Shown here in pieces: positions 22,326 through 38,004 of a DNA stretch of 64,000 nucleotides. The notes beneath the pieces were generated by a model that saw only the letters and a program-made list of their open reading frames with translations, had not been told where the DNA came from and did not search any database. Made by a program: the position numbers and the translations under genes. This stretch comes from Scleromatobacter humisilvae (GTDB taxonomy: Bacteria; Pseudomonadota; Gammaproteobacteria; Burkholderiales; Burkholderiaceae_C): assembly GCF_023231945.1 (NCBI RefSeq), contig NZ_JAJLJH010000003.1:62001-126000 (forward strand), read 5' to 3'. How positions within the stretch are numbered: position 1 is the first letter of the stretch; each line of letters begins with the position of its first letter.

Positions 22326-22445
22326 GTCCGGTCTGTCTCGTCCATTTTTATAGACGTGCAGACTAACGGAGTTTGGCGGCCCCTGGCATCCGAAAGATGC
22401 CCAAAACAACGCGCAGTTGCAGGTTTCTTCCTTGACGAAGAATTA

Positions 22446-22466
22446 ACGCCCGCGCAAGGCGGGCGT
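22446..22466 (-). terminator. Terminator after ETF-ubiquinone oxidoreductase gene
   Basis: On the minus strand an 8-bp stem (ACGCCCGC / GCGGGCGT) with a CTTGC loop lies 8 bases after the stop and runs into TAATTCTT. Confidence 0.72.
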
Positions 22467-22474
22467 CGAGGGCA

Positions 22475-24157
22475 TCACATGCCGGCGTAGTTCGGGCCGC
22501 CGCCGCCCTCGGGCGTGACCCACACGATGTTCTGCGTCGGATCCTTGATGTCGCAGGTCTTGCAGTGCACGCAGTTCTGCGCGTTGATCTGCAGGCGGTC
22601 GGTGTCGTCCTCGTTCTTGACGAACTCGTACACGCCGGCCGGGCAGTAGCGGCTTTCGGGGCCGGCGTACTTCGCGAGGTTGACGTTGACCGGGACCGAG
22701 TTGTCCTTCAGCGTCAGGTGGATCGGCTGGTCTTCGGCATGGTTGGTGTTGCTGACGAAGACGGAGCTGAGGCGGTCGAAGGTGAGCTTGTTGTCCGGCT
22801 TCGGATACGCGATCTTCGGCATCTCGGCGGCCGGGCGCAGCGTCTCGTTGTCCTTGACCGTGCCGTGCAGCGTCCACGGCGGGATCATGCCGAGCTTGGG
22901 CATCAGCCACTGCTCGATGCCGGTCATGATGTTGCCGATCAGCTTGCCCTTCTTGAACCACAGCTTGAAGTTCTTGGTGCGCTGCAGCTCGGTGTGCAGC
23001 CAGCTCTTGTCGAACGCATCGGGATACGCGGCGAGCTCGTCGCCCTGGCGGCCGGCCTGCAGCGCGGCGAACGCGGCCTCGGCGGCAAGCATGCCGGTCT
23101 TGATCGCGGCGTGGCTGCCCTTGATGCGCGACGCGTTGAGCGTGCCCGCGTCGCAGCCCACCAGCGCGCCGCCCGGGAACACCATCTTGGGCAGCGCCTG
23201 CAGGCCGCCGTTGTTGATGGCGCGCGCGCCGTACGAGATGCGCTTGCCGCCTTCGAGGTGCGCGCGGATCGCGGGGTGCGTCTTCCAGCGCTGCATCTCC
23301 TCGAACGGGCTCATCCACGGGTTCTTGTAGTCGAGGCCGATGACGAAGCCCAGCGTCACCTTGTTGCCTTCGAGGTGGTACAGGAAGCCGCCGCCGAAGG
23401 TGTCGTCCATCATCGGCCAGCCGCCGGTGTGCATCACGTGGCCGGGCCTGGCCTTGTCGGCCGGGATCTCCCACAGCTCCTTGATGCCGATGGCCCAGCT
23501 CTGCGGGTCACGGCCTTCCTGCAGGTTGAACTTCGCAAGGATCTGCTTGCCCAGATGGCCACGCGCGCCCTCCGCGAAGATCGTGTACTTGCCGTGCAGC
23601 TCCATGCCCAGCTGGAAGCCGTCGTGCGGCTCGCCGTTGCGGCCGACGCCCACGTTGCCGGTGGCCACGCCCTTGACCGCGCCCTTGTCGTCGTACAGCA
23701 CCTCCGCCGCGGCGAAGCCGGGGAAGATCTCGACGCCCAGCGCCTCGGCCTGGCTCGCCATCCACTTGACGACGTTGCCCAGGCTGATGACGTAGTTGCC
23801 CTTGTTGTGGAACGGCATGGGCATCAGCCACTCGGGCACGCTCTTCGAACCCGTCTCCGACAGGAACAGGAACTCGTCGCCCGTGACCGGCTGCAGCAGC
23901 GGGCCGCCGTCGGCCTTCCAGTTCGGCAGCAGCTCGTTGATCGCGATCGGATCCATCACGGCGCCCGACAGGATGTGCGCCCCCGGTTCCGAGCCCTTCT
24001 CGAGCACGACCACGGAGACTTCCTTGCCGGACTCCGCGGCCAGCTGCTTCAGGCGGATCGCGGTGGACAGCCCGGCCGGGCCGGCCCCCACGATCACGAC
24101 GTCGTATTCCATCGCCTCGCGCGGGCCGTATTGAGCAATGAGTTCTTGCGGGGTCAT
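22475..24157 (-). CDS. Electron transfer flavoprotein-ubiquinone oxidoreductase
   Basis: A 560-residue membrane-associated flavoprotein that passes electrons from ETF, reduced by acyl-CoA and amino acid dehydrogenases, to ubiquinone. The FAD motif VVIVGAGPAGLSTAIRLKQL is at about residues 19-38. The C-terminal 4Fe-4S cluster motif CVHCKTCDI is near residue 530, with the first of the four cysteines upstream in SRYCPAG. GGLQALPKMVFPGGALVGCDAG is typical of the family. The start MTPQELIAQYG at 24,157 has a GGAAAG ribosome site. It diverges from an SDR/thioesterase pair, consistent with fatty-acid oxidation. Confidence 0.95.
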   Translation of the reverse strand: MTPQELIAQYGPREAMEYDVVIVGAGPAGLSTAIRLKQLAAESGKEVSVVVLEKGSEPGAHILSGAVMDPIAINELLPNWKADGGPLLQPVTGDEFLFLSETGSKSVPEWLMPMPFHNKGNYVISLGNVVKWMASQAEALGVEIFPGFAAAEVLYDDKGAVKGVATGNVGVGRNGEPHDGFQLGMELHGKYTIFAEGARGHLGKQILAKFNLQEGRDPQSWAIGIKELWEIPADKARPGHVMHTGGWPMMDDTFGGGFLYHLEGNKVTLGFVIGLDYKNPWMSPFEEMQRWKTHPAIRAHLEGGKRISYGARAINNGGLQALPKMVFPGGALVGCDAGTLNASRIKGSHAAIKTGMLAAEAAFAALQAGRQGDELAAYPDAFDKSWLHTELQRTKNFKLWFKKGKLIGNIMTGIEQWLMPKLGMIPPWTLHGTVKDNETLRPAAEMPKIAYPKPDNKLTFDRLSSVFVSNTNHAEDQPIHLTLKDNSVPVNVNLAKYAGPESRYCPAGVYEFVKNEDDTDRLQINAQNCVHCKTCDIKDPTQNIVWVTPEGGGGPNYAGM

Positions 24158-24235
24158 GAGCAGCTTTCCTGGGAAGATGAATGCCTGGGGCGCCGGCTTG
24201 GAGCCATTGGGGCTGCATTCTACGGGGCACGCGGA

Positions 24236-24263
24236 CGAAAATAGCACGATCGTTCGATTTTTG
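24236..24263. promoter_or_regulatory. Long palindrome in the ETF-QO / SDR divergent promoter region
   Basis: Centred on ACGATCGT, the two arms match at 11 of 14 positions over 28 bases, including the AT-rich outer parts (AAAAT / ATTTT). It lies between two divergent genes of likely acyl-CoA metabolism. The shape is that of a TetR-type operator; TetR regulators of fatty-acid genes are known in beta-proteobacteria, but the binding protein is not in this window. Confidence 0.55.
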
Positions 24264-24373
24264 CGCTGCATGCTATGGTGGCACCCATCTAATCCAGGCG
24301 GGACGGCGTCGCCGACGTCGCCGCAGCGTGCTCGCACGCCCGCCTCAAAACGAACTCACGGAGAGAGCAGATC

Positions 24374-25156
24374 ATGGCCATGAAGATCGACCTGGAAGGC
24401 CGCGTCGCCTTCGTCACCGGCGCGTCCAGCGGGCTCGGCGCGCAGTTCGCGAAGACGCTGGCGAACTCGGGTGCCGGCGTCGTGCTGGCCGCGCGCCGCG
24501 TCGAGCGGCTGAAGACGCTGCGCGCCGAGATCGAGGCGGCCGGCGGCGACGCGCACGTCGTCGAGCTCGACGTCACCGACCCCGACAGCATCAAGGCCGC
24601 CGTCGCCCACGCAGAGACCGAGATGGGCGTCATCGACATCCTCGTCAACAACTCCGGCGTCAGCACCACGCAAAAGCTGACCGACGTCACGCCCGAGGAC
24701 TTCGACTACGTGTTCGATGTCAACGCCCGCGGCGCCTTCTTCGTCGCGCAGGAAGTGGCCAAGCGCATGATCGCGCGCGCCCGCGGCGCCGCGCCCGGCA
24801 CGTATACCGGTGGCCGTATCGTCAACGTCGCCTCCATGGCCGGCCTGCGGCCGCTGTCGCAGATCGGCGTCTACGCGATGAGCAAGGCCTCGGTGATCCA
24901 CATGACGCGCGCGATGGCGCTCGAATGGGGCCGCTACGACATCAACGTCAACGCGCTGTGCCCCGGCTACATCGACACCGAGATCAACCACCACCACTGG
25001 GCGACCGAGTCGGGCCAGAAGCTGATCCAGATGACGCCGCGCAAGCGCATCGGCAAGCCGTCCGACCTCGACAGCGCGCTGCTGATGCTGTGCGCCAACG
25101 AGAGCCACTTCATCAACGGCGCCGTCCTGCAGGCGGACGACGGCTTCGGCCTCTGA
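24374..25156 (+). CDS. Short-chain dehydrogenase/reductase (3-ketoacyl-CoA/ACP reductase-like)
   Basis: A 260-residue classical SDR. The cofactor motif TGASSGLGAQFA is at about residues 16-27, VNNSGVS at about 94-100 and the catalytic Ser-Tyr-Lys set in NVASMAGLRPLSQIGVYAMSK is seen as VASMAG and YAMSK. The second beta strand ends AARRVERL, which favours NADP(H). Its partner downstream, after 3 bases, is an acyl-CoA thioesterase, and ETF-QO lies opposite, so a role in fatty acyl or hydroxyacyl-CoA metabolism is likely. The exact substrate is not visible. Confidence 0.85.
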   Translation: MAMKIDLEGRVAFVTGASSGLGAQFAKTLANSGAGVVLAARRVERLKTLRAEIEAAGGDAHVVELDVTDPDSIKAAVAHAETEMGVIDILVNNSGVSTTQKLTDVTPEDFDYVFDVNARGAFFVAQEVAKRMIARARGAAPGTYTGGRIVNVASMAGLRPLSQIGVYAMSKASVIHMTRAMALEWGRYDINVNALCPGYIDTEINHHHWATESGQKLIQMTPRKRIGKPSDLDSALLMLCANESHFINGAVLQADDGFGL

Positions 25157-25159
25157 ACG

Positions 25160-25585
25160 ATGCGCTTCGACCTGCCGGAAGGCCTGAAGCTCGTCCACGA
25201 GATGCGCATCCCGGTGCGCTGGGGCGACCTCGACGCGATGGGCCACGTCAACAACACGATCTACTTCCGCTACTTCGAGTCGCTGCGCATCGAGTGGCTG
25301 CAGACGTTCGGCGCCGAGCCCAACCCGGAAGGCGTCGGGCCGGTGATGGCCAACGGCTTCTGCAACTTCATCCGCCAGATCGAGTATCCCGGCGAGATCG
25401 TCGCGCGCCACTTCGTGACGCCGCCGAAGCCGGGCTCCAGGAGCCTGGACACCTACTTCACGCTCTCGATGTCCGACACGCCCGACCTCGTCTCCGCCAA
25501 CGGCGGCGCGACGCTGGTGTGGCTGGACTTCCCCAACAAGAAGACCGTTCCCTTGCCCGACCACCTGCGGGTTGCCTGCAATTGA
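25160..25585 (+). CDS. Acyl-CoA thioesterase, 4HBT hot-dog family
   Basis: A 141-residue thioesterase of the 4-hydroxybenzoyl-CoA thioesterase type. The active-site segment RWGDLDAMGHVNNTIYFRYF carries the conserved aspartate and the D-xx-GHVNN pattern. It should release free acid from an acyl-CoA. It starts 3 bases after the SDR stop, so the pair is one transcription unit. Confidence 0.9.
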   Translation: MRFDLPEGLKLVHEMRIPVRWGDLDAMGHVNNTIYFRYFESLRIEWLQTFGAEPNPEGVGPVMANGFCNFIRQIEYPGEIVARHFVTPPKPGSRSLDTYFTLSMSDTPDLVSANGGATLVWLDFPNKKTVPLPDHLRVACN

Positions 25586-25685: not shown

Positions 25686-28600
25686 TCACGAAGGATGCCG
25701 GATGTGCAGGCCCGGGCGCGGCACCGCATCGAAAGCGGCGGGCGCGGTCGCGGCGACGAACGACTTCTCGAGGGTGAGCAAGGCAGCCTGCAGCGCCTGC
25801 AAGTCCGCGACCTGCGGTGCGTCGATCGGCATCTCCGACGGCCAGGGCGGACCCGTGCGAGCCGCGCGCAGCGGCGGCGAAGTGGCTGCTGCCGCGATCT
25901 GCTGCGCCAGTGCTGGAGTATCCGGCTGGGTTCCGACTGCGGAGGCCAGTCCGGTGACACGCTCGCGCAGTGCCGTCAGCAGGGCATTGAAGCGCACCCA
26001 GCGGTGCTCGATCCAGCCGACGCTGCCAGGCATCGCGAATTTTTCGATGAAGGCCTTGGCCACGGCGGTGCCGTATTCGTCGGCCAGTTCAAGTATCTGC
26101 CTGCCCGACATTCGGATGTTGATTCCGCCCTCGTCCGGCAGCAGGTAGACGCGTGCGACCCGGTCGCGCACGCCCGGCATGCGCGTGGCCGTGCCGTCAT
26201 TCCAGCGCCAGGTCGTCGTGAAGAGCGCTACCGTGAATGAGATCAGGCTGGCCAGGCCGGTGCGGGTACGCACCTCGTCGGGGTCCCATGTGTCGGCTCG
26301 GCCCTCCCGGTTCTGCTTCGGCAGCCAGACCGGCGGCCCGGCGTCCCGGCTCGCGCGGGACTGCAGTGAGATTCCGAAAGTCGGCCACCTGGGTACCCAG
26401 GTGTCGAACAGGTGGATCGGGAAGTTCGAGCACAGCCCGCCGTCGGACATCCAGCAGCGCCTCGCACCTGGCTTGGTGTAGGGGGTTTCGTATACCAGCG
26501 CCCACAAGGGCACCGCCGAGATCAGGAACGGGAAACTCATCGCCATGCGTGCGGCAACGACGATCGGCAATGCGCCGGTCGGCAGCTCGCGCAGGCCCTC
26601 GGGAACCGCGCTGACCGGCGGATCGAGGGCATCGCGTGGCATGTAGCTGCTCGACATTCCTTCCAGGTAATCCAGCAACCCTTGCGGAAAGTAGTCCTTC
26701 AAGTCGTCGGGAAGGAAGAACAGCCTCTCCATGTCATCGGACTCGTCCAACGGAAACAGATAGGGCCGCCCGTGGGACAGGTTGCTCACGTAGACCTGCA
26801 GATCGATGGAGCGTTGGTCAGCATCCACCGCGTCGTATTTCAGAACCTCGGATGGCGGGGATGGCGCATCCCACAGATCCGCAAAGGTGAGCGGCGCATC
26901 GGCCGCAGGGTCGCGCCCGGCTGCCTGCTGGATGGATGCGTGCAGGAATTCGACGAGGTCCGGTTCGCCCGCAGCGGCCTCGCCGCCGTGACCTCGGCAC
27001 AGGCCGAAGCCGTTCGGGACCAGGCCACGCGCCAGATCCCATGTGATGCCGACCAGCACTGCCAGCCCCAGCGTCACCACGAACACCAGCAAGGCCAGCA
27101 GCCACCATGGCGCCCAGAAGTTGATCGTCAGAATGGTGGCCTTGCCGATGTTCCCTGCCCCTGTCCAGGCCAGCACGGTCCAGATGCAGCCGAGCACAAG
27201 CGCGATGACCGGCACGCAATACACGATGCGCATCGACTTGCCGTACTGCCGCAAGGCCTCGACAGCCGCGGCCCCCAGGCGCGACGCGGCAGACCCGTGA
27301 TTCAGCGCAGCCAGGAAGATCTTGAACAGCCGGCGCGTTCGCGGCTGCGGATTGAACAGGCGCTCCAATTGGGAACGCTGGTCGCCCTCGACCTCGGCGG
27401 CGAGCTTGCTCGGTACGTTCTCCAGCAGTTCGAAGCCGTCGGCGAAGCCATGACGCCGGCGATATTCAGCCGCGGCCGTCAGGGCGGCGGCGAAGGCTCC
27501 GATCGAACTGCCACCGATGCTTCGGAACCTGTACTGCCGCGACAATCCGGCCACGGCCGTCGCATAGATGATGCCGCTGGTGATGCCGCCTTCCAGGATG
27601 ATGTCGCAGAAGCGGTTGCGCGGGGCCCCGCGCGCTTCGATGGACCCGATGTCGTCGGTGTCCGGCTTCACGGGTGCCGCGGGAGACGGGGCAGGGGTTG
27701 CCGTCGAGCCGGCGCTCTGGTCGCCCCAGTCGGCCAGTTCGCCAAGCGCCTGCCGGCTCGGAAAGAGCGCGTAGAGAGTGCCGCGCGTCGTGACGAAGGG
27801 TTCGAACCCCTGGACCCGGATGGGTTCGCCGCCGGCCTGCGGAATCTCGAAGACGGCCTCCGGATCTTCGTGATGGCCGACCAGCGGATCCTTGGCACGT
27901 CCGCGGTTGTCCGGTCCCATCGGCTTCTTCTCGATCCATTCCGAGACCAGGCTTTCGAACTGGTCTTCGATGCTGGCGCAGAAGAAGGCGGCCATGAGCC
28001 CCCGGGGCACCTCCGGGGCCTTCTCGAAGCTGGGCCCATAAGGGATGCCGCGCCGGAACAGTGTGCGCAGTCCTGGAGGCACCACGGGATCATCGCGCGG
28101 ATTGGCGCGCCGGATGTGCGCGCCGAAGGGGCAGCCTGTTCCGCTCGGATCCTCGCTCGGCTTCAGCATCGCGACCGGCACGGCTCCGCTGGCGCCGGCA
28201 GCCGGGGCAAGGAGAACTCCGGGCTGTACAAGCGCGCCGTTGGTCCATCGGCCGCACAACTTGGCCTTCAGGTATTCGATGTCGCGTGTCTCGGGGTTGC
28301 TCGCAACGGTGCGCTGGAGCCACTTGTTGAAGCGGTCCTCGTGCTGCTCGACTTTGCGCAGGATCCCGAAGCTGGCATTGCGCGCGAAGCGAGCGGCGTC
28401 GGCCGGCGTGCTCTTGCCGACCCAGTAGTTGAATTGCTTGTCGTTGTCGTGGCCCAGCAGCAGTTCGCCGGCGGAGTGCAGTTGTTGCGTGCGGGATCGA
28501 CCGGTCACCACGGGCTGCGAGATGTTGTCGCGGAAGCCGAAATGCACGACCCGGACCGGCGCAGGCGCCTTGGGCCTGATCTTGCGCGTCAGGTGGGCGG

Positions 28601-29147
28601 CGTCCAGCATGGTCTCCCATCCCTCGAAGCAGTCCTCGCCGCACATGGCGAACCGGAGCAGCCGCGTCATCTTCTCCAGGTCGTCCTTCTCGTCGGCATG
28701 CAGGCTCAGCCAGACATGCGCGCGATCCAGCGCGAAGGGCCCCTCCCAGCGATCCGCAGCGCCGTCGTCCGAGTCGCCGAGGTGCACACCGGCACGCGAG
28801 GGTGCCCCCTCCGTGAACGCGGGCGACTTCTGCGCAAGGATGTCGAGGTACCCGGCCGCCAACCCGAGCGCCTGCAATCCGCGATAGGTGAACCCGATGT
28901 TGATCGCGACGTCGGGGCGGCCGGCCTCGCCGAACGTGATCAAGCGCCGGCGCAGCAAGCGGTCGAGGAAGCCGCGTGCGGCACCCGCTTCCTTGATCTT
29001 CAGGACGATGTGGCGAGCGAAGTCGGTGTCGTAGCCGGTGAGCGCGAGGCGCTGCACGTCGCGCTCTTCCGCCTTGTCCAAGGGTGTCGGGGGCGGGTGG
29101 GCGCCGGGCGCGGGAGCGTCTCCGTCGATGCGGGGGGTGATGACCAT
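25686..29147 (-). CDS. DyP-type heme peroxidase fused to patatin-like phospholipase
   Basis: A 1,153-residue two-enzyme fusion. Residues about 28-470 are a full DyP-type peroxidase: DVQRLALTGYDTDFARHIVL, the distal motif GFRDNISQP (Asp207; the usual GxxDG ends in Asn208 here), the proximal heme His344 in GAHIRRANPRD, and distal Arg in RRGIPYG. Residues about 510-1,050 are patatin-like: GGITSGIIYA (oxyanion loop), nucleophile Ser548 in GGSSIGA and the catalytic Asp902 in MSDGGLCSNFP. Two hydrophobic segments (about 641-661 and 681-701) sit inside the patatin part, so it may dock in the membrane. It starts 5 bases after the P450 stop. The fusion could release and oxidise membrane acyl chains; this is inference. 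No signal peptide was seen. Confidence 0.86.
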   Translation of the reverse strand: MVITPRIDGDAPAPGAHPPPTPLDKAEERDVQRLALTGYDTDFARHIVLKIKEAGAARGFLDRLLRRRLITFGEAGRPDVAINIGFTYRGLQALGLAAGYLDILAQKSPAFTEGAPSRAGVHLGDSDDGAADRWEGPFALDRAHVWLSLHADEKDDLEKMTRLLRFAMCGEDCFEGWETMLDAAHLTRKIRPKAPAPVRVVHFGFRDNISQPVVTGRSRTQQLHSAGELLLGHDNDKQFNYWVGKSTPADAARFARNASFGILRKVEQHEDRFNKWLQRTVASNPETRDIEYLKAKLCGRWTNGALVQPGVLLAPAAGASGAVPVAMLKPSEDPSGTGCPFGAHIRRANPRDDPVVPPGLRTLFRRGIPYGPSFEKAPEVPRGLMAAFFCASIEDQFESLVSEWIEKKPMGPDNRGRAKDPLVGHHEDPEAVFEIPQAGGEPIRVQGFEPFVTTRGTLYALFPSRQALGELADWGDQSAGSTATPAPSPAAPVKPDTDDIGSIEARGAPRNRFCDIILEGGITSGIIYATAVAGLSRQYRFRSIGGSSIGAFAAALTAAAEYRRRHGFADGFELLENVPSKLAAEVEGDQRSQLERLFNPQPRTRRLFKIFLAALNHGSAASRLGAAAVEALRQYGKSMRIVYCVPVIALVLGCIWTVLAWTGAGNIGKATILTINFWAPWWLLALLVFVVTLGLAVLVGITWDLARGLVPNGFGLCRGHGGEAAAGEPDLVEFLHASIQQAAGRDPAADAPLTFADLWDAPSPPSEVLKYDAVDADQRSIDLQVYVSNLSHGRPYLFPLDESDDMERLFFLPDDLKDYFPQGLLDYLEGMSSSYMPRDALDPPVSAVPEGLRELPTGALPIVVAARMAMSFPFLISAVPLWALVYETPYTKPGARRCWMSDGGLCSNFPIHLFDTWVPRWPTFGISLQSRASRDAGPPVWLPKQNREGRADTWDPDEVRTRTGLASLISFTVALFTTTWRWNDGTATRMPGVRDRVARVYLLPDEGGINIRMSGRQILELADEYGTAVAKAFIEKFAMPGSVGWIEHRWVRFNALLTALRERVTGLASAVGTQPDTPALAQQIAAAATSPPLRAARTGPPWPSEMPIDAPQVADLQALQAALLTLEKSFVAATAPAAFDAVPRPGLHIRHPS

Positions 29148-29152
29148 GATTG

Positions 29153-30880
29153 TCAAACCCCCGCATTGGCGATGTCTGCCACGGTCGTCAGCGGATACGC
29201 GCTGAAGAAGTAGCCGGCGATCGGCTCGCGATGGTACTGTCGAATGGCATTCACGAACTCGTTCGGGTACTCGCGGATCGGCCGCGGCAGATTCACATCG
29301 AGGTAGTTGAACTGCAGATCGAACAAGGGCACGAGCAGTGCGAAGAATTCGACGTAGGCATCGAATTCCCCGTCGTAGGCCGTCGACATGCAAAGGTGGG
29401 TGCGCGTCTCGTCGAAATTGAACCAGGCGAAATGCACGTGCTTGGACATCGCGAGGGCGTCTTCCACGATGTGCGCACCGGCTCGTATGATCTGCTCGAG
29501 CTTGTAGGCGCTCTGCAGCACCGGCTCCTTGATCGGCAGCACCACATGCAACGGCTGCTGGTTCAGCCTCAGGGTGCGTTGGAATTGCAGCGGGAAGCTT
29601 TCGCAGATGGCGCCCCAGCGCGTGCGCAGTCGCATCGGCAACCCGGTGTCCGGTGCAATGACGCGCGAGAGACCAGGCAGCAGCAGGACCTGCATGACGG
29701 CCTCCACCACCAGCGGCATCACGAAGCGCTGCCCGGCGCATCGATGGGGATAGTCCTTCCGCGGTGCCTGCCAGCCGAATCGCAGGTCATCCTGCGAATC
29801 GGCGCCCAGTGCCAGCAGCACCAGTGCGCCGTCCGGAATGCCTGCCAGCCGGGCCCCGCTGCCAGGGTCGCCCGGGTCGGCACGCGCAACCCGGGTCAGG
29901 AACGGGGCCGCTGGCCTGGCGTTCAGGGCGGCGTCGATCAAGGCGGCGAGTCGCGCTCTGTCGCCCGCCCTGGCTGCTGCTCGTGCAGCCCCGATCGACG
30001 GCGTCCCCTCTGCGCGCGCCTGATCGTCGAAGAAGAAGTCGATGGCGATCGAGACGGCCGCCGTGATGTTTCCGACGGTTCCCGCCATCAGTCCGAGAGC
30101 CACCATGATCGGATACGCCGGGTCGCCGGAGCCGTTCTGCGCGAACAGGCGCGAGATCACCGTCTGCCGCGACAGGCCCTTGTCCAGCAGGTCCCGGTCC
30201 CGCGTGGCTGTCGCGGCGTCGTTCACGAAGGCCTCGAGCAGGCTCTTCAAGGCGAGGGCCTCCGGCGATTCGAGCGGCGCCAGGCCCGGGTCGGTGACGA
30301 AGTGCCGACCGATGATCTGGAAGATGAGCCGCTCGTACGTGGCTGCCATCCCGAGTTCGAGGTGCACGTGCGATTCCGGCGGCAAGCCGAACAGCAATTC
30401 GACGAAGCGCAATCCGGCCTGCTGCGCAACGTTGCCGACTAGGTCGAACTCGCTGGTCTTGAAGGGGCGGACGCACGCCTGCCGCACGGCTTCGCGGGCC
30501 GTGGCTTCGATCTCGCCGTTGCTGAACGTCAGCGCTTTCACGGCATCGAGCTTCTGCTTGTCGTGAAGGGCACGATCATCGATACCCAACATGAAACGTC
30601 CTTGGCTGTCGAGCGACGCATAGGGTTGGACGCTGTAGTGCTGGAGTGCGTGGGCGACGTCGTCACGGCCCGAGACGACATAGAGGTCATGGCTCGGCCA
30701 CGACGCCGTATCGTCGGGCTCGCGCACGAGGCTCTTCAGCTGCAGCAGGCGGAAGCCCGCATCTCGCAGCTCCCGGTACAGATCCTGCCGCGCCTCATCG
30801 TCGCGCAACCAGTCGAACAGCAGCCGATTGCGGCGAAACGGGTTGGTCTCGCGATCGAAGACGTCGAGCTTGTCGGTCAT
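29153..30880 (-). CDS. Divergent cytochrome P450 with extra C-terminal domain
   Basis: A 575-residue protein. The heme-binding loop FGWQAPRKDYPHRCAGQRF (Cys381, with His379 and Gly383 as in HxCxG) identifies a P450. The I-helix region reads LMAGTVGNITAAVSIAIDFF, with Asn in place of the usual acid-threonine pair, and the K-helix ExxR is not found (IDAALNARPAAPFLTR instead). Such changes occur in P450s that rearrange peroxides rather than activate oxygen, but they may also mark a degenerate enzyme. Residues about 430-575 form an added domain (HVHFAWFNFDETRTH, STAYDGEFDAYVEFF, GYFFSAYPLTTVADI) that I could not name; it resembles sequences next to DyP peroxidases. It lies between the STAND ATPase and DyP-patatin genes. 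Confidence 0.78.
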   Translation of the reverse strand: MTDKLDVFDRETNPFRRNRLLFDWLRDDEARQDLYRELRDAGFRLLQLKSLVREPDDTASWPSHDLYVVSGRDDVAHALQHYSVQPYASLDSQGRFMLGIDDRALHDKQKLDAVKALTFSNGEIEATAREAVRQACVRPFKTSEFDLVGNVAQQAGLRFVELLFGLPPESHVHLELGMAATYERLIFQIIGRHFVTDPGLAPLESPEALALKSLLEAFVNDAATATRDRDLLDKGLSRQTVISRLFAQNGSGDPAYPIMVALGLMAGTVGNITAAVSIAIDFFFDDQARAEGTPSIGAARAAARAGDRARLAALIDAALNARPAAPFLTRVARADPGDPGSGARLAGIPDGALVLLALGADSQDDLRFGWQAPRKDYPHRCAGQRFVMPLVVEAVMQVLLLPGLSRVIAPDTGLPMRLRTRWGAICESFPLQFQRTLRLNQQPLHVVLPIKEPVLQSAYKLEQIIRAGAHIVEDALAMSKHVHFAWFNFDETRTHLCMSTAYDGEFDAYVEFFALLVPLFDLQFNYLDVNLPRPIREYPNEFVNAIRQYHREPIAGYFFSAYPLTTVADIANAGV

Positions 30881-30921
30881 TCCTCACCTCCCACTGTGTC
30901 GTTGCCGCGCCGACCCTGGAC

Positions 30922-33900
30922 TCAGGGCGACTCCACCCGTTCCCTGCGAGCCAGCCAGTTGCGAGCCTGAAGCACGTCGCGCGTCGTGTGCCCCTCCGTG
31001 ATGGCGTCGTAGGCCGGCTTGAGCACCTCGGCCGCCTGGCGGTGCCAGCCCTGGCCGTGCCACAGTTCTGCCAGGCTCGTCGCCGCGCGCAAGGCCAGCG
31101 AGCGCTGATCGAGCGACGTCGCGTCCGCGAGTGCGCCGCGCAGCCAGATCTCGGCGTCGGCGGCGCGATCCTGGCCGGATCGCACGGCGCGCTGCAACAG
31201 GATCTGCCCCGTCAGGCGCCGGATCTCGGCGATGTAGTAGCGCTCGCCGGTGCGTTCCACGATGGCGAGCGCCTGTTCCAGGAGGGCCAGCGCTTCGTCG
31301 AGTCGAAGGCCTCGGGCCAGCGCCTCGGCCCGCATGGCCAGGTAGAAAGGGGTCGTGACGACGGCGCCGGTGGCCGCCCAGAGTTCAAAGCCCTTGTGCA
31401 TCTCCTCGATGCCTTCGGCGCACTCCCCCAACTCGGCGAGGATGCGTCCGCGCATGATCCGCGCGTGGGCGAGCCAGACCGTGAATCCGTTCTCCTCGCA
31501 GACCGTCACGGCGGTCGTGGCGCTGCCCAGCGCGGCTTGGTCCTCGCCGCGGAAATGCTGCACGGCTGCCCGGAAGCCGTGCGCTTCGCCGAGGCTGAAT
31601 GAATGGTTCAGGCGCTGCGCGAGTTCGACGACGGCGTCGACGCGCTGAAGGGCCTGATCGGGAAAGCCCAGTTCCCAAAGCGACCAGGCCGAGTAGCACA
31701 AGCACATGACGCCGGGGTTCTGCATGCCCTCGGGCTTGCGCTCGAGGCGATCGTATTCGGCGCGGCACTCGTCCATCTGGCGCACGGCCAGACCCATCTC
31801 TCCCTGGTGCATGAGGATGTTGGCCAGGGCCCACTGGGTCTGGATGCGATGCAAGGGGCTGTCGCGATGGCCGTCGACCGCCGCGGCTTGAAGCGCGTAG
31901 TCCCGCGCCTGCGCAAAATTGGCGCGCATGAAGTGATAGCCCTCGAGGCCGAGGAGAACGCGCATGAGCGCGGCCTGATCACCAAGATCACGGGTCAGCG
32001 CCATGGCACGTGCATAGGCTTGTTCGACGCTCTGTGCTCCGTAGCCGTGCGTGGCGATGAGGCGAGCGGCCAGCAGCAGTTGTAGCCGGAGCTCGAGTCG
32101 ATCGCGCTCCTGGCATTCGGGCGTGCGGTGCAGCACGCTCAACGCCTGTTCGAGATGCCCTATCGCCTCGGCATGGGCCGAGCGCGCCGTGGCCTGCCTG
32201 GCGGCGATCTCCCACAGGTGAAGCGCCTGGGAATCGAGCCGCGCCTGTGTCAGGTGGAAGGCCAGCAGTTCGGGCTGGCGTTGCGCCAGTCCAGCAAACC
32301 GCTCTTCGATGACCTGCGCGATGACCTGGTGCAGGCGCGCACGCCGCGGCAGCAACAGGGAACGATACGCCGCGTCGCGCAACAACACGTGCCGGAATGC
32401 CAGGCGCGTTTCGTCGTCGTCGCGCCTGGAGATGAGTACCCCGGAACGGAGCAGCGCCGCGAGCTGCACCTGAAGATCCTGCAGGGGGAAGGAGGAGCCG
32501 GGGTGTTCGAAGACGGCCTGTATCAACGCCTGCGGGAACTCGCGGCCGATCACCGCGCCAAGCTGGGCCACCGGCTTTGCGGGTCCGAGCTGGTCAAGGC
32601 GTGCGGTCAGGAGGTCCAGCAACGTGGTGGGGACGGGAGGCACGGCAGTCGGATCGAGGACCCCTCCCGTGGCACCGACGTCCATGGCCATCCGGGTCGA
32701 CTCCTCGATGAAGAGCGGAACGCCATCGGCTCGCGCGGCAATGAGATGCACCAGTTCGGTCGGCAACCTCGACGCCGCGCAGGTGCGCTCCACCATTGAA
32801 CGCGACAGCGCCGGCGAGAGGCCGCGCAACTGCATCTCGTGCACCGGCCTTCGCGGGTACCACCAGCCATGCGCGTCGGTGCGCATCGTGACGATGATCA
32901 ACAGGGGGAGCGCGCGCCCTTCCTCGGCGAAGCGATTCACGAAGTCGGCCGTCGATGGATCCGCCCAATGCGCGTCTTCCACGATCATGCAGGAAGCACT
33001 TTCGCGCATCAGCTTGACGGCCAGCGCCACCAGGAGTTCCACGGTCAGATGGCGCCGCCGTTCGGGCGCCAGATCAAGGACCGGATGGCGCCGAGGCATG
33101 GCGATGCCCAGGAGGTCGGCAGCAAGCGCCAACGTCCCTTCATCGGCACGGACGCGCGCCACCAGATGGCGCAAGCGGTCCAGGGTGGTCGGATCGCCGA
33201 GGTCTTCCATGTTGAGCTGGGCACGCAGCGCCTCGATCAGCGGCTGGAACGCGCTGTTCGTGTGATCGGGCGAGCAGCGACACTCGAACACGGGGGATCC
33301 TCGCGCGACCAGGACGGTCTTGGCTTCGCGCACGAGTCTCGACTTGCCGATCCCGGCTTCGCCGACGATCCGAACGAGGCGCAGCGAGCCGGCGCACGCA
33401 GCGTTCCAATGGTTGTCCAGCGCTTCCAGTTCGGCATGGCGTCCGACGAAAGGCGTCATGCGGGGATTGGCGATGCGGGTCGCTCCGTGCTGCTCGGTCG
33501 ACAACACCTTGCCCGACGCGAAGAAGGCGAAGACCGGCTTCTCGATCCCTTTCAGCTCGTCGTACAGGTGCCCTGGAATCTCGAATCGGAAGGCGTCCCG
33601 CACGATGCTCCACGTGGGACTTGCCACCAGCATGCGACCCGCGCCGGCCTTGTCGCGCAGGCGCGCTGCCGTGACGATCGGATCGCCCGTCGGCACGCCA
33701 TCGCGCACCACGACTTCGCCCGTGCAGACGCCAACCCGTACCGAGAGTCCGAACGCGGGCGCAGCCTCGACCAGTTCGAAGGCGGCGTTGACGGCCTTGG
33801 CAGCCGCATCTTCGCGTGCCACGGGCAATCCGAAATAGCACATCCGGCTGTCGTCGCCCTGCGGGTCATCGGCGACGCCGCCGTAGGATTCGACAATGGC

Positions 33901-35058
33901 GGCGACGCGGTGGTCGTAGGCGGCCTGCAATTCGCTGAAGCGCTCGGTTCCCAGCCGGTGCATACGCCCCATGGAATCGTCGACGTCGATCGACACCACC
34001 GTCACCTGGCGCCAGGTGTCGTCGTTGCGCCGTCGGCGATGCTCCGGAAACGGGACGAATGCCCCGTCGCCATAAATCTCCGGTCGCAGCGTGGCGAGGC
34101 GGTCGATGCCCATCCTGTCGTGGAGGTGGACGCGCGCCTCTGCCGCGGCGATCGCCAGCGGCGCAGCGTTGATGAGCTGGCCGTAGAAGCAGGTCAGGAA
34201 CTCGAGCGACCCCGGGTCTTCCGGCATCGAGCCACAGGCAAGCGTCCCCGCGGCGTTGTGACAAGCCGCACGCCAGTCGCCCGCGAGCGGCGCGCCGGCG
34301 CACTGGACGACGAGGAGCCGCGGCCAATGCACGCCGGCAAGGAGTTCCTGCGCATCGAACAGTTCGCCATTGCGCCAGGAAAGGGGCGGTCCGTCGACTG
34401 TCAGGCGACCGCTGAACGTGCCGAGGCAATGCAGGACGTCGCACTCGGTGACCAGGTCGAGCAGTTCGTCGCGCCGCACGTCGGTCACGTGCGCGACGCT
34501 TACCGCGACCCCGTCCATCGTGCGCAGGCGCTCGATCAAGGGGAGGACGGGATCCTCGCCGCCGGGGCGCGCCACCAGTCCGACCAGGACCGAGACCTGC
34601 AGCGGGCCGTGCCTCGGCGGCGCAGCCGCACTGGCATGGACGCCATCGTCGACGACGAGCTGCCGGCTGATCGCAAACCGTTCGCCCAGGAATCGATCAC
34701 CATCGAATGCCAGCTCCCATGGCAACCATGCCAACGCCGGCTCGAGTTGCAGCGTGAGCGGCCGAGGGCCGCTTTCTCGCAGGACGGCGGCGATGGGCGC
34801 CGGCAGAAGGGCCGACGACAGCAAGGCCCCGAACTCGCACCATGCAGAAGCGCCGGCGCTGCGCAGTTCCGGTTCGCCCGGTCGAGCCCGTGCAGTCAGA
34901 GCCAGGAATCGCCGGTGCAATTCCTCGATCCTCGGCGTGGCGTTCGGAATCGAAGCGAAGCGTACGGTGCGACGCGAGTCGGTGAGCGCGAGGAGCAGCT
35001 CGTCCCCGGGCGACATCGCAGCAAGGACGAGGCCTTGCGAGTCCCACGCGGACGCCAC
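30922..35058 (-). CDS. CHAT-like / nucleotide cyclase / STAND ATPase / TPR signalling protein
   Basis: A 1,378-residue multidomain protein from a GTG at 35,058 with an AAAGGA ribosome site. Residues about 1-340 look like a CHAT (caspase-fold) domain: LPWELAFDGDRFLGERFAISR, DVLHCLGTFSG and LLVVQCAGAPLAG, though the catalytic His position appears to be Thr214, with Cys253 nearby. Residues about 350-515 are a class III cyclase domain: both metal Asp are present (Asp358, Asp402) but the transition-state Asn is Val462, so activity is doubtful. A STAND/AAA_16 ATPase follows (Walker A GEAGIGKS 566-573, Walker B MIVEDAHWAD 691-700), then a helical, TPR-like C-terminus (about 950-1,378). It is first in the operon and probably senses a signal for the two enzymes downstream. 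Confidence 0.84.
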   Translation of the reverse strand: MASAWDSQGLVLAAMSPGDELLLALTDSRRTVRFASIPNATPRIEELHRRFLALTARARPGEPELRSAGASAWCEFGALLSSALLPAPIAAVLRESGPRPLTLQLEPALAWLPWELAFDGDRFLGERFAISRQLVVDDGVHASAAAPPRHGPLQVSVLVGLVARPGGEDPVLPLIERLRTMDGVAVSVAHVTDVRRDELLDLVTECDVLHCLGTFSGRLTVDGPPLSWRNGELFDAQELLAGVHWPRLLVVQCAGAPLAGDWRAACHNAAGTLACGSMPEDPGSLEFLTCFYGQLINAAPLAIAAAEARVHLHDRMGIDRLATLRPEIYGDGAFVPFPEHRRRRNDDTWRQVTVVSIDVDDSMGRMHRLGTERFSELQAAYDHRVAAIVESYGGVADDPQGDDSRMCYFGLPVAREDAAAKAVNAAFELVEAAPAFGLSVRVGVCTGEVVVRDGVPTGDPIVTAARLRDKAGAGRMLVASPTWSIVRDAFRFEIPGHLYDELKGIEKPVFAFFASGKVLSTEQHGATRIANPRMTPFVGRHAELEALDNHWNAACAGSLRLVRIVGEAGIGKSRLVREAKTVLVARGSPVFECRCSPDHTNSAFQPLIEALRAQLNMEDLGDPTTLDRLRHLVARVRADEGTLALAADLLGIAMPRRHPVLDLAPERRRHLTVELLVALAVKLMRESASCMIVEDAHWADPSTADFVNRFAEEGRALPLLIIVTMRTDAHGWWYPRRPVHEMQLRGLSPALSRSMVERTCAASRLPTELVHLIAARADGVPLFIEESTRMAMDVGATGGVLDPTAVPPVPTTLLDLLTARLDQLGPAKPVAQLGAVIGREFPQALIQAVFEHPGSSFPLQDLQVQLAALLRSGVLISRRDDDETRLAFRHVLLRDAAYRSLLLPRRARLHQVIAQVIEERFAGLAQRQPELLAFHLTQARLDSQALHLWEIAARQATARSAHAEAIGHLEQALSVLHRTPECQERDRLELRLQLLLAARLIATHGYGAQSVEQAYARAMALTRDLGDQAALMRVLLGLEGYHFMRANFAQARDYALQAAAVDGHRDSPLHRIQTQWALANILMHQGEMGLAVRQMDECRAEYDRLERKPEGMQNPGVMCLCYSAWSLWELGFPDQALQRVDAVVELAQRLNHSFSLGEAHGFRAAVQHFRGEDQAALGSATTAVTVCEENGFTVWLAHARIMRGRILAELGECAEGIEEMHKGFELWAATGAVVTTPFYLAMRAEALARGLRLDEALALLEQALAIVERTGERYYIAEIRRLTGQILLQRAVRSGQDRAADAEIWLRGALADATSLDQRSLALRAATSLAELWHGQGWHRQAAEVLKPAYDAITEGHTTRDVLQARNWLARRERVESP

Positions 35059-35371
35059 GTCATCGTCCTTTTGTCGCGCGTGGGCCGTGTTCGTGAGGCC
35101 CGGTCACTGCACCTTCGACCGGTCCGACGCACACACAAGGCGAGGGAAGTGCCAATGGGCCCATAACCTACCTCCCGCGGTTCTCGCTTGTTGGCGCACA
35201 TCATGCACAGGTCACAGGGCGACCGCAAGGGGGCCGGCGGTCGCGGCGCCGAGGACGCTGACAGCGGCCACCCGCCGGCATGCCGGAAGCCGCGGCGTGC
35301 AATCGAGGAAGACCTGCCTGCCGATCGCGGGCGAACTCCCGAAGCCCGCCGGCGAGCCGCGAAGACCAAGA
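35059..35371 (-). other. Upstream region of the STAND/P450/DyP-patatin operon
   Basis: About 310 bases between a terminator for the secreted-protein gene and the GTG at 35,058. It must hold the operon promoter, but no convincing minus-35/minus-10 pair was found. No gene is supported here. Confidence 0.4.
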
Positions 35372-35394
35372 GGCGCCCGCATGGCGCGGGCGCC
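35372..35394 (-). terminator. Terminator after the secreted-protein gene
   Basis: On the minus strand a 9-bp perfect stem (GGCGCCCGC / GCGGGCGCC) with a GCCAT loop, 20 bases after the stop, runs into TCTTGGTCTT. It separates this gene from the operon that starts at 35,058. Confidence 0.7.
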
Positions 35395-35414
35395 CAGGGT
35401 TGACGCCGGCAGGC

Positions 35415-36041
35415 TCACCGTTCACCGAACTCCAGCTGATGAGCAGATCGCGCCAGTGCCAGTTCCTGCCTGACCGCAGCGCGCGTCGTTGCGATCGAAG
35501 CGCGGGGGGCAACGACGCTGCTCAATTGCGCATCGGACAGTTCACCGACCCTGTCGAATTGCCCGGAGGCCTGGGCATTGCGCAGTTCCGCGACGACGGC
35601 TTCCCGGGCCCGCTCGCTGCGGGCCTCGCAGTGCATCACGTCCAGGACGTTCGTGCTGCATCGGTCCCGGCTTGCGCCGTCGGTTACGGACAGCGCCGCG
35701 CCTGGCGCCGAGATGTCGGGCGACAGCCGTACGGCGCCCGTATCCGCCGCCGAAACGACCGGTTCGCCAACCGGGCAAACCTGCGCCTGGATGTTGCGGG
35801 CCCAGGCATCGACTTCCCGGATGTCGAGCAGATGGACCCCACGTTCGTTGAACACGAACTCGCGCAGCGAGGCCGGACCGGCCAGGAAATGCCCATAGAG
35901 GCGCTGCTGGAAGGACGACAGCGCGTGCCCGCAGGCGTCGGACGTCGGCGCCGCTTGCGCCATGGCTGCATAGGACAGGATCGAAAATGCGACGACGGCG
36001 AAGTAGCGCAGAAGCGGTCTGATGGAAAAAGACTGACTCAT
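35415..36041 (-). CDS. Predicted exported protein, function unknown
   Basis: A 208-residue protein with a signal peptide: MSQSFSIRPLLRYFAVVAF then SILSYAAMAQAAPTSD, with probable cleavage after AQA. The mature part has three or four cysteines (DACGH, AQVCPVG, DRCSTN, MHCEARS), which suggests disulfides in the periplasm. The start at 36,041 is preferred because GGAG lies 7 bases upstream; an earlier in-frame ATG at 36,068 has none. No family was recognised. It stands 61 bases after a tiny membrane-peptide frame and upstream of the STAND ATPase operon, separated by a terminator. Confidence 0.7.
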   Translation of the reverse strand: MSQSFSIRPLLRYFAVVAFSILSYAAMAQAAPTSDACGHALSSFQQRLYGHFLAGPASLREFVFNERGVHLLDIREVDAWARNIQAQVCPVGEPVVSAADTGAVRLSPDISAPGAALSVTDGASRDRCSTNVLDVMHCEARSERAREAVVAELRNAQASGQFDRVGELSDAQLSSVVAPRASIATTRAAVRQELALARSAHQLEFGER

Positions 36042-36102
36042 GATGATCTCCGTGGAGGTGAGGGGCATCGCGCCAGGCGAAGCCCTCGGGCTGGCTATCG
36101 AT

Positions 36103-36195
36103 TCACGACAGCAGCAGCACCAGGAAAGACACGTTGGCGGCGCACAGCACCAGGCCCAACAAGGATGAAACGAAGTCTTCGGTCTGCAATTTCAT
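36103..36195 (-). CDS. Possible 30-residue membrane peptide
   Basis: MKLQTEDFVSSLLGLVLCAA followed by a hydrophobic end makes one membrane helix. GAGGG lies about 7 bases upstream of the ATG. It precedes the exported-protein gene by 61 bases on the same strand. Small membrane peptides of this kind are common, but the evidence here is only a start site and composition. Confidence 0.35.
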   Translation of the reverse strand: MKLQTEDFVSSLLGLVLCAANVSFLVLLLS

Positions 36196-36548
36196 GGGTG
36201 CCCTCGCTTTTGGTTTCGCCGCACGAACTGCTCGTGGGGCCAGGACAGTCTCTTTCCGCCACGCGACGCAAACCAGCGCACTGCGCACCACGCAGACGGT
36301 GAATCTTCACGCTCGGCGGCGAACGTTCGCAGTCGTGGCATCGCAGCGCCTTGCTCATGACCCGCGGCTGCAACATGCCGTGAGAAGGCCTGGGACGGGC
36401 TGGAACCAGGTCGAACAGCGCACCAACCGGGTGCTGGTGAATTTGTCACCGCGTCAGGCGCAAAGATGTCACTGTCCGGCACGCGGGCGACCGCCTAGTC
36501 TCTGCACTGCCAGGACGCCTTTGTCCGGGCGAGCCTGAGGAGAAATCC
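36196..36548. other. Regulatory region between divergent genes
   Basis: A 353-base stretch without a supported gene. It contains two direct TGTCAC repeats (36,444-36,449 and 36,467-36,472; 23 bases apart) and ends with the strong ribosome site GAGGAGA before the LuxR-family ATG. No clear promoter was found. Confidence 0.4.
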
Positions 36549-37241
36549 ATGTCAATGGCGATCGATCAAAGACTCGAGGCCGGCGCGCTCGCCGCCGCGT
36601 CCCCCGCCGACCCTGCCATGGCGTCGACCGCAAGGACCGGACATTGGTTGGCCGGTCTGTTGGACCAGATCGACTACGGCCTCGTCGTGCTGGACGAAAC
36701 GGCCGATGCGTTGCACGTCAACCGCGCCGCGCGAGATTGGCTGTCGTCGGCAGCCGCACCGTTGCGGATCCACGGCGGCCGCATCGAAGCCGTGTCCGTC
36801 CGGGAAGCCGGCGTGTTCCGCCGTGCTCTGGCTGGCGCGGTCGTGCGCGGATGGCGGGCCTTGCTCGCCTTCGACGAGGGCGGCGAGGGCGTCGTGGCCA
36901 CCGTCGGACCCCTGCCGGGGCCCCGTGCGGCGATCCCCGGCCTGGCGCTGCTGGTGATCGGCCGGCGTCATGCCTGTGACGCCCTGACGGCACAGATGTT
37001 CGCGAGCCGCCACGGATTGACCCCAACCGAAGCCCAGGTGCTCGATCTGTTGTGCACCGGCCTGACCCCCCGCGAGATCGCGCGCCGCCAAGGCATCGCG
37101 GTGTCGACGGTGCGCTCGCACGTCGGCAACATCCGGTCGAAGACGCGCGCGAAGTCGATCGGCAGGCTGGTGCGCGAGGTCGCGCTGCTTCCTCCATCGG
37201 GACATGCGCTGGGCGCGAGTTCGGGGCTGGCGGTCAGCTGA
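36549..37241 (+). CDS. LuxR-family transcriptional regulator with PAS-like N-terminus
   Basis: A 230-residue regulator. The N-terminal half (about 34-135) has a PAS-like opening (LDQIDYGLVVLDETADALHVN) for an unknown signal. The C-terminal LuxR helix-turn-helix is at about 158-215: LTPTEAQVLDLLCTGLTPRE and GIAVSTVRSHVGNIRSK. No receiver domain, so it is not a response regulator. It lies upstream of a Crp/Fnr gene and near the STAND/P450/DyP operon, which runs the other way. Confidence 0.87.
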   Translation: MSMAIDQRLEAGALAAASPADPAMASTARTGHWLAGLLDQIDYGLVVLDETADALHVNRAARDWLSSAAAPLRIHGGRIEAVSVREAGVFRRALAGAVVRGWRALLAFDEGGEGVVATVGPLPGPRAAIPGLALLVIGRRHACDALTAQMFASRHGLTPTEAQVLDLLCTGLTPREIARRQGIAVSTVRSHVGNIRSKTRAKSIGRLVREVALLPPSGHALGASSGLAVS

Positions 37242-37323: not shown

Positions 37324-38004
37324 ATGACACAAGCAGTCCAAGGAGCGGTTTCCGTCCTTAGGCGCAGCATCGAGGCGCCGCCGCTGCCTGCCATGACCCC
37401 GCTCCTGGGCGAGCTGGCAGCGTGCGGCCTGATGCGGCGCTATCGCAAGGGAACCGTCCTGATCGAGGAAGGCGACCAGGGCGATGCCCTCTACATCATC
37501 ATGGCAGGCCGGCTGCGGGCGTTCTCGTCGGCTGCCAACGGCCGCGAGATCACCTTCGGGATCTACGGTCCGGGCGAATACCTTGGCGAGATGAGCCTGG
37601 ATGGCGGCCCGCGCTGCGCCAGCGTCGAGACGATCGAGGCCTCGCTATGTTCGGTCGTGAGGCGCGAGACGCTGGATCGATTCATCGACGAGCATCCGGC
37701 GTTCGCCTTCGAGTTGCTGACCAAGGTGATACGGCGCGCTCGCGCGGCGACCCTGTCGGCCAAGAACCTGGCCCTCAACAGCGTCTACGGCAGCCTGAAG
37801 CAACTGCTGGAGTCGGCCTCGAGTCCCCGGGCGGACGGGACGGCGGTCGTCGGCGAACGACTGACGCACCGGGATCTCGCCAATCGCATCGGATGCTCGC
37901 GCGAGATGGTCAGCAGGGTCATGAAGGATCTCGAGACGGGCCAGTACGTGCGCCAGCAGGAAGGCCGACTGATCATTGCCCATCCGCTGCCTATTCGCTG
38001 GTAG
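37324..38004 (+). CDS. Crp/Fnr-family transcriptional regulator
   Basis: A 226-residue regulator. The cyclic-nucleotide-binding fold is at about residues 25-140 (GTVLIEEGDQGDALYIIMAG, GPGEYLGEMSLDGGPRCASV) and the Crp helix-turn-helix at about 175-215 (LTHRDLANRIGCSREMVSRV). FNR-type cysteines are absent, so it is not an oxygen-sensing FNR. The phosphate-binding stretch GEMSLDGGPRCASV is close to the GEMAL/RSA pattern of CRP, so cAMP or a related ligand is possible. GGAGG lies about 9 bases before the ATG. Confidence 0.88.
   Translation: MTQAVQGAVSVLRRSIEAPPLPAMTPLLGELAACGLMRRYRKGTVLIEEGDQGDALYIIMAGRLRAFSSAANGREITFGIYGPGEYLGEMSLDGGPRCASVETIEASLCSVVRRETLDRFIDEHPAFAFELLTKVIRRARAATLSAKNLALNSVYGSLKQLLESASSPRADGTAVVGERLTHRDLANRIGCSREMVSRVMKDLETGQYVRQQEGRLIIAHPLPIRW

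Follow-up and report, generated by a model that had tools for sequence, protein, structure and literature searches.

We wondered what Scleromatobacter humisilvae might gain from an operon in which a cyclase-like signalling ATPase, a P450 and a DyP peroxidase fused to a patatin lipase are encoded side by side. The operon lies at 25,686-35,058 of a stretch of 64,000 nucleotides, hereafter called the window, and residue numbers refer to the proteins of the window. It consists of three minus-strand genes, as read from the open reading frames (ORFs), with intergenic gaps of 5 and 41 bases. Gene 1 (30922..35058, 1378 amino acids) encodes a CHAT-like N-terminus followed by a class III cyclase-like domain, an AAA_16 (STAND-type) ATPase and a TPR region. 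Gene 2 (29153..30880, 575 amino acids) encodes a P450 with a companion domain, and gene 3 (25686..29147, 1153 amino acids from the ATG at 29147, which is probably the start) encodes the DyP-patatin fusion. ORFs and domain matches confirmed this arrangement, which a first-pass annotation had described and had linked to a signal-gated pathway that cuts and oxidises lipid. Our own reading, to which we give nearly an even chance, is a signal-gated lipid-oxidation pathway that would resemble an oxylipin cascade and be built largely from unrelated parts.

The first-pass annotation had taken the three genes for one unit. In 149 relatives we found gene 3 matches in 22 genomes and gene 2 matches in 8, the own genome being included in both counts. 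A profile built from five gene-2 proteins gave a full-length match in 17 of 399 genomes of the family, again with the own genome included (in G159 as two pieces). At E 0.001 the profile matched 88 genomes, and those beyond the 17 carried companion-only, fused or partial P450 matches. The cyclase-ATPase gene was located directly upstream and the DyP gene directly downstream of the full P450 gene in 17/17 genomes (the neighbourhoods of G414 and G342 were read through loci L069 and L072, taken to be equivalent). The patatin gene came next after DyP in 10 of the 17; the stretch contained none in 6, and in one the gene was cut off (10/16 readable). Adding named loci gave 24 operons of the same order, with the cyclase-ATPase directly upstream of the P450 in 24/24 and the patatin next in 15/24; two of the other nine end inside the DyP gene at a contig end (L074, L179). 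P450 protein identity to that of the window ranged from 25 to 47% across the operons. The genes do form a conserved unit, and the set is not confined to this strain.

Where present, the operon is well conserved, and its distribution is sporadic. None of three congeners carried a full P450 protein, and a search of 369 class genomes at E 1e-20 matched the own genome alone. At this threshold the same P450 protein is excluded elsewhere in the class (368/369 genomes without a match). A plasmid-borne element was rejected as well, the P450 protein having no match in 72,556 plasmid records.

Could the genes stand together by chance, or as a merely local cluster without a common function? Many DyP loci are without the patatin and the sensor, as such a cluster would allow. 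However, the order kept in 17/17 genomes, the enrichment of the partner genes near DyP, repeated fusions and ten later loci speak against it; the census already contradicts the idea and we give it practically no credence. The enrichment was assessed in 96 loci, comparing 852 kb within 5 kb of DyP with 661 kb beyond. P450 genes occurred at 52.8 per Mb near and 3.0 far, cyclase-ATPase genes at 41.1 and 3.0, catalase genes at 29.3 and 3.0, patatin genes at 14.1 and 0, and Crp genes at 7.0 and 1.5 (6 and 1 genes). A second patatin type (4.7 vs 3.0) is not clearly enriched because its two rates are similar.

The P450 moiety of gene 2 covers residues ~1-436, with the haem ligand Cys381 and the I-helix Asn271. 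It has the P450 fold, and the haem-ligand Cys (HxCxG) is present in 24/24 operon P450s. We compared 56 P450s, comprising census stretches of more than 250 residues (those of 250 residues or fewer were left out) and four later P450s. The I-helix pair was Gly-Asn in 21 and Thr-Asn in 3 of the 24 operon P450s, none of which has the acid-alcohol pair. In the 32 other P450s of the class the pair was Pro-Thr in 19, Glu-Thr in 5, Asp-Thr in 3, Ala-Pro in 2, Val-Asn in 2 and Val-Pro in 1. Asp/Glu-Thr is kept in 8/56 overall, that is in 8/32 non-operon and 0/24 operon P450s. In a sequence alignment, without superposition on prostacyclin synthase or allene oxide synthase, Asn271 falls at the position of the Thr in relatives with an intact acid-alcohol pair. 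Prostacyclin synthase (Asn287), plant allene oxide synthase, fungal 8R-LDS and 10R-EAS have an Asn near the haem iron, and fungal LDS retain the bacterial HxC motif (PMC13049297, in the sections consulted, as for all papers cited here). Judged by sequence, the active site of the operon P450s, with Asn in 24/24, apparently resembles the hydroperoxide-rearranging kind of prostacyclin synthase and plant allene oxide synthase (PMC13049297). This agrees with the initial suggestion of a lipid-peroxide-rearranging P450.

Matches of the P450 by sequence and structure span a broad range of bacterial P450s; among the structure matches listed, those of the gene 2 model cover mainly residues 4-436 and include no prostacyclin synthase or CYP74 structure, which has no bearing on a resemblance to either. 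This breadth would suit the synthesis of a metabolite other than a fatty acid (aromatic, terpenoid or peptide), with patatin serving as acyl transferase or esterase, and so would the sporadic distribution and the known action of DyP enzymes on aromatics. We nevertheless consider such a synthesis improbable: no scaffold-making synthase appeared among the recurrent neighbours (best 25 of 136 families), whereas the lipase, FadL and the membrane segments point to lipids. Within those best 25 families, 111 operon neighbours outside the markers gave Pfam matches to catalase (7), FadL/TodX (4), enoyl-CoA hydratase (4), patatin (3) and abhydrolase (3). The FadL/TodX neighbours belong to L102, L111, L108 and L118, which represent two lineages. 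As a control, 111 genes lying further away in these loci (34,146 residues, against 41,264 for the neighbours) contained at most one member of each of these families, a bound that follows because all families with at least two appear among those listed (best 25 of 184).

The first-pass annotation had noted, simply as an extra domain of the P450, a part of gene 2 that is indeed present and is the most constant partner of this class of DyP. This companion domain (29156..29560, minus strand, about residues 441-575) is a member of a domain group found beside DyP. It lies within 5 kb of DyP in 95 of 97 DyP-found loci, figures that concern this DyP class and not all DyPs. When 14 loci found via a P450+companion protein were added, it was present in 109/111, L085 and L144 being without it. 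In these 109 loci companion and DyP share an ORF in 18, and in 87 they are same-strand neighbours no more than 400 bases apart. The 97-locus, 111-locus and rate counts cover DyP stretches of at least 600 bases, so that L087, for example, is not among them. None of 38 members of the domain, including that of the window, matched Pfam or NCBIfam at E 0.01. A PDB sequence search gave nothing convincing, as the match to 3pe7 (E 0.003 over 34 positions) was taken as spurious. A duplicate of DyP was ruled out, there being no profile match to DyP. The predicted structure runs strand-helix-strand-strand-helices, an order that by our reading is ferredoxin-like. Record titles of the companion/DyP group include Proteobacteria, Acidobacteria, Actinobacteria, Bacteroidetes, Cyanobacteria, Myxococcales and Nitrospira. 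The companion domain is undescribed.

A further regularity concerned the haem protein next to DyP. Within 5 kb of DyP, a P450 was found in 46 and a catalase-family protein in 23 of the 97 loci (window included), and both in none, with 10.9 joint occurrences expected (hypergeometric 1.7e-8). Without the operon clade the numbers were 32/83, 23/83 and 0, with 8.9 expected (hypergeometric 1.1e-6); both probabilities are only indicative because related loci are not independent. A later sample was chosen by the companion domain and consisted of the ten best-scoring places of the 22 genomes with a match among 299 genomes of the phylum. DyP was beside the companion in 10/10, accompanied by a P450 in 4 and by a catalase in 5; one locus, at a contig end, had neither, and none had both. 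The four P450 loci amount to little more than one case because all come from one genus (g524); the five catalase loci come from five genera. The catalase-family partners match the catalase fold with 3e4w as best PDB entry (E 6e-44), which we take to be the mycobacterial protein compared with coral allene oxide synthase. Fusions recur with both partners: DyP-P450 in L047, L053, L108, L118, L134 and others, DyP-catalase in L112 and L137.

The same motif and exclusivity evidence would also fit the repair of lipid peroxides, in which patatin excises damaged acyl chains and DyP destroys the hydroperoxide together with P450 or catalase, controlled by a stress sensor. The catalase-family partner and the common reduction of peroxides by peroxidases agree with repair. 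Yet a large cyclase-ATPase sensor and a remodelled P450 active site are scarcely what repair would require, and a set as sporadic as this one (17/399 family genomes; 0/3 congeners) is unlike housekeeping repair. We regard repair as unlikely, if deserving of serious attention.

Three side observations extend the picture of these partners. The own genome contains another operon with companion domain and DyP, this one of the catalase type (G000:C1:1215888-1219901; L200:9889-13902). A subgroup of the catalase-family proteins (L057, L061, L116, L136, L200) carries NTKTQG or NTKTHG where most others are HxKxHG-like, which suggests a changed distal haem pocket. In L201, L202, L203 and L207, which belong to one genus of another family of the phylum, a single long protein combines P450, companion and DyP; its gene adjoins a cyclase gene and a Crp gene, and hydrophobic stretches are seen in the protein of L207.

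Gene 3 begins with the DyP domain (27738..29060, minus strand), in which the motifs around the catalytic Asp207 and the proximal His344 are intact. These Asp and His motifs are present in 24/24 operons. The best PDB matches by sequence were 8re3 and 8re2 (E 1e-27), followed by an ancestral D-type DyP. Gene 3 thus resembles D-type DyPs over the domain and in its Asp and His motifs; it differs in having a companion domain and a P450 or catalase partner, and it scores under the TIGR01413 cut-off. PF04261 gave no match in the own genome, which does not indicate absence of DyP, both its DyP genes having been found otherwise.

The patatin domain (25689..27605, minus strand; Pfam E 2e-12) retains Ser547 (GSSIG) and Asp902 (DGG). 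Across the operons GxSxG was found in 15/15 and DGG in 14/14 readable copies, so that on sequence the inactive patatin and peroxidase sites which might have undermined the proposal are not seen. No PDB sequence homologue of the patatin was detected at E 0.01. At least one hydrophobic segment lies between patatin Ser and Asp in 14/14 sequences examined on a simple scale, and the window has two (27045..27227, minus strand); the patatin is therefore predicted to be membrane-anchored. The DyP-patatin fusion with two membrane segments had correctly been recognised in the window, but it is a local condition: the fused form is that of the window and of Comamonas sp. lk (L068), whereas elsewhere the two genes are as a rule separate. 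In a tree of 23 rows (the truncated L074 was left out) its distribution calls for two changes, on branches with strong support. Having arisen at least twice, the fusion was rejected as a defining feature of the system.

Besides the window, patatins of the membrane type were found in 12 DyP loci and in L181-L185, with a weak partial match in L139; L102 and L111 have the second patatin type. An SGNH-like hydrolase, so labelled by our reading of the sequence and not by a family search, is encoded in L055 (6523-7386) and L060, where it perhaps replaces patatin. Taken over the three types (membrane patatin, second patatin, SGNH-like), a lipase is near 18/97 DyP-found loci, 16 of them with P450. At L060:6292-11223 the SGNH-like hydrolase occurs with a companion-DyP-P450 protein, the hydrolase being fused to, or next to, such a protein in L060 and L055. 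A possible alpha/beta lipase was seen beside the Nitrospira DyP-P450 fusions (L108:3345-4340, L118:8246-9208); of this pair only L108 was scanned, with Lipase_3 at E 0.005, under the cut-off.

Gene 1 carries its CHAT-like domain at 34024..35058, the cyclase-like domain at 33499..34026 and the AAA_16 ATPase at 32893..33453, all on the minus strand. Walker A and B motifs are present in the window and, with minor variation, in the readable rows of the 24 operons. In class III nucleotidyl cyclases two Asp bind metal and an Asn and an Arg complete the site; in 22/22 readable copies, that of the window included, the metal Asp pair and the Arg are retained. Pfam CHAT was recognised in 11/21 CHAT-like regions, the window copy scoring below the cut-off. 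A His and a Cys are present in the window, but a conserved His-Cys dyad was not found across the homologues of the CHAT-like region. A protease role of the region was ruled out because the dyad is not conserved. The cyclase-like and ATPase domains first described for this gene were thus seen, while its CHAT residues are not conserved and its cyclase site lacks the usual Asn (below). The closest known layout was that of the TOMM kinase/cyclase family (TIGR03903), shared over about 980 residues (cyclase, AAA, TPR). Unlike this family, gene 1 has a CHAT-like N-terminus, with the first 283 family positions unmatched, and it falls below the family cut-off with a changed cyclase site.

A STAND/CHAT-type sensor could also belong to a defence or cell-death module and trigger membrane attack by the patatin, with the oxidising enzymes as further effectors. 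Patatin effectors do occur with cyclases in defence systems, the distribution is sporadic, and PADLOC gave a weak match to PycC (E 0.013). This was, however, the only PADLOC match for the three proteins, the CHAT residues are unconserved, and the presence of Crp and LuxR regulators next to several copies hints at control of transcription. We therefore find the defence role, which had been put forward as one version of the pathway, unsupported, PADLOC being the only test made of it, and very improbable. What may stand of that proposal is the signal-gated cutting and oxidation of lipid, which the conserved unit, the intact motifs and the P450 active site favour.

For this lipid-oxidation pathway we infer substrate, chemistry, direction of flow and signal as follows. 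The ATPase/TPR/cyclase protein would sense a cue, in some genomes acting with the neighbouring Crp-type regulator. The membrane-anchored patatin would then free acyl chains. DyP and its companion domain might use peroxide (or O2) to oxidise these chains, giving a hydroperoxide or radical. Finally, the P450, which has an I-helix Asn and no O2-activating acid-alcohol pair, could rearrange the peroxide with no need of a redox partner, a step that a catalase-family protein would take over in other loci. The predicted membrane anchoring of patatin, the FadL neighbours and the P450/catalase alternation point to lipid peroxides.

Several observations weigh against this pathway. To our knowledge, fatty-acid dioxygenase activity has not been established for DyP enzymes. 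Of 22 readable operons, 7 showed no patatin, and only 8/83 loci beyond the operon clade have a lipase of the three types nearby, 6 of them with P450. The usual cyclase Asn is replaced in 22/22 readable copies, by His in 21 and by Val in the window, so that gene 1 departs from the class III cyclase pattern and an ordinary adenylate cyclase is ruled out; without this Asn, its cyclic-nucleotide output is uncertain. No Crp consensus site with two or fewer mismatches was found upstream of the operon at 35059-36700 or in four relatives, and the idea of such a site was rejected on these grounds. LuxR genes are not clearly enriched near DyP, their rates being similar (4.7 vs 4.5 per Mb). The K-helix ExxR, which is usual but not universal in P450s, is kept in 14/24 operon P450s and lost in the window (AxxN); as fold and haem Cys are present, the window protein is still a P450, but a divergent one. 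Pro-Thr, not Asn, occupies the I-helix position in 19/32 relatives outside the operon clade. The I-helix Asn is suggestive only, because the distal Asn is dispensable in some enzymes possessing it (PMC13049297), and the exclusivity probabilities carry the reservation given above.

How does the operon compare with known systems? The animal cyclooxygenase (COX)/prostacyclin cascade has an upstream lipase. In COX/prostacyclin synthase and in the fungal fusions of dioxygenase and P450 (linoleate diol, epoxyalcohol and allene oxide synthases), a haem oxygenase or peroxidase-type enzyme is paired or fused with a self-sufficient P450, and several of these P450s have the distal Asn, as is apparently the case here (PMC13049297). 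In contrast to these systems, the operon, known from genes alone, has a DyP with a new companion domain in place of a COX-like dioxygenase and includes a signalling ATPase. Fatty-acid hydroperoxide metabolism has found two fold solutions, P450 (CYP74; PMC10813956) and catalase-related enzymes (PMC5617202), and the alternative DyP partners would by analogy correspond to the same two folds. No lipoxygenase partner was noticed here, no search aimed at lipoxygenase having been made. Bacterial fatty-acid oxygenation by a peroxidase family is represented by the oleate-diol synthase of Pseudomonas aeruginosa (PA2077/PA2078), which differs in consisting of relatives of di-haem cytochrome c peroxidase and not of DyP, P450 or patatin (PMC4496055). 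By title and abstract, no earlier description of the gene set was found among the open-access matches listed, subscription papers and preprints being outside this scope, and the consulted parts of an octadecanoid review contained no DyP or patatin terms (PMC11719350). The conserved gene set is apparently undescribed, in line with the first-pass annotation.

The operon is flanked by regulators and by genes of fatty-acid type. On the plus strand follow a divergent LuxR-type (GerE) regulator (36648..37241) and a Crp-type regulator with a cyclic-nucleotide-binding domain (37393..38004), both with uncertain starts and both recurring beside some relatives. LuxR and Crp genes are present in the stretches of 6/24 operons (window, L042, L045, L176-L178) and LuxR alone in L179. 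Adjoining the operon on the other side, 21222-25585 of the window encodes ETF-QO, a short-chain dehydrogenase and a thioesterase (fatty-acid type) as well as a GGDEF protein. Enoyl-CoA hydratase-like genes precede the operon in L043, L068 and L071 (a Pfam match for L043, the other two being 86-90% identical to it).

Regardless of mechanism, two things are new: an unmatched companion domain in 95/97 DyP-found loci, and the alternation of P450 or catalase with 0/97 loci having both. A wider claim, which we put forward as possible and rather doubtful, is that many phyla carry a lipid-mediator machine in which DyP and companion oxygenate and a P450 or catalase-family protein finishes, convergent with COX-prostacyclin and allene oxide synthase routes. 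The Burkholderiaceae version would then be self-contained, regulated and eicosanoid-like, with phospholipase and sensing ATPase encoded in the same operon. As far as we know, the natural substrates of DyP enzymes are largely unknown, and the pathway, if real, would offer a concrete, testable role for them. Bacteria would have a regulated route to release, oxidise and rearrange lipids. Its main oxidising enzyme would bear no relation to the animal, plant and fungal ones, and its last step would reuse the P450 and catalase folds. The operon may thus be a bacterial counterpart of a lipid-hormone pathway.

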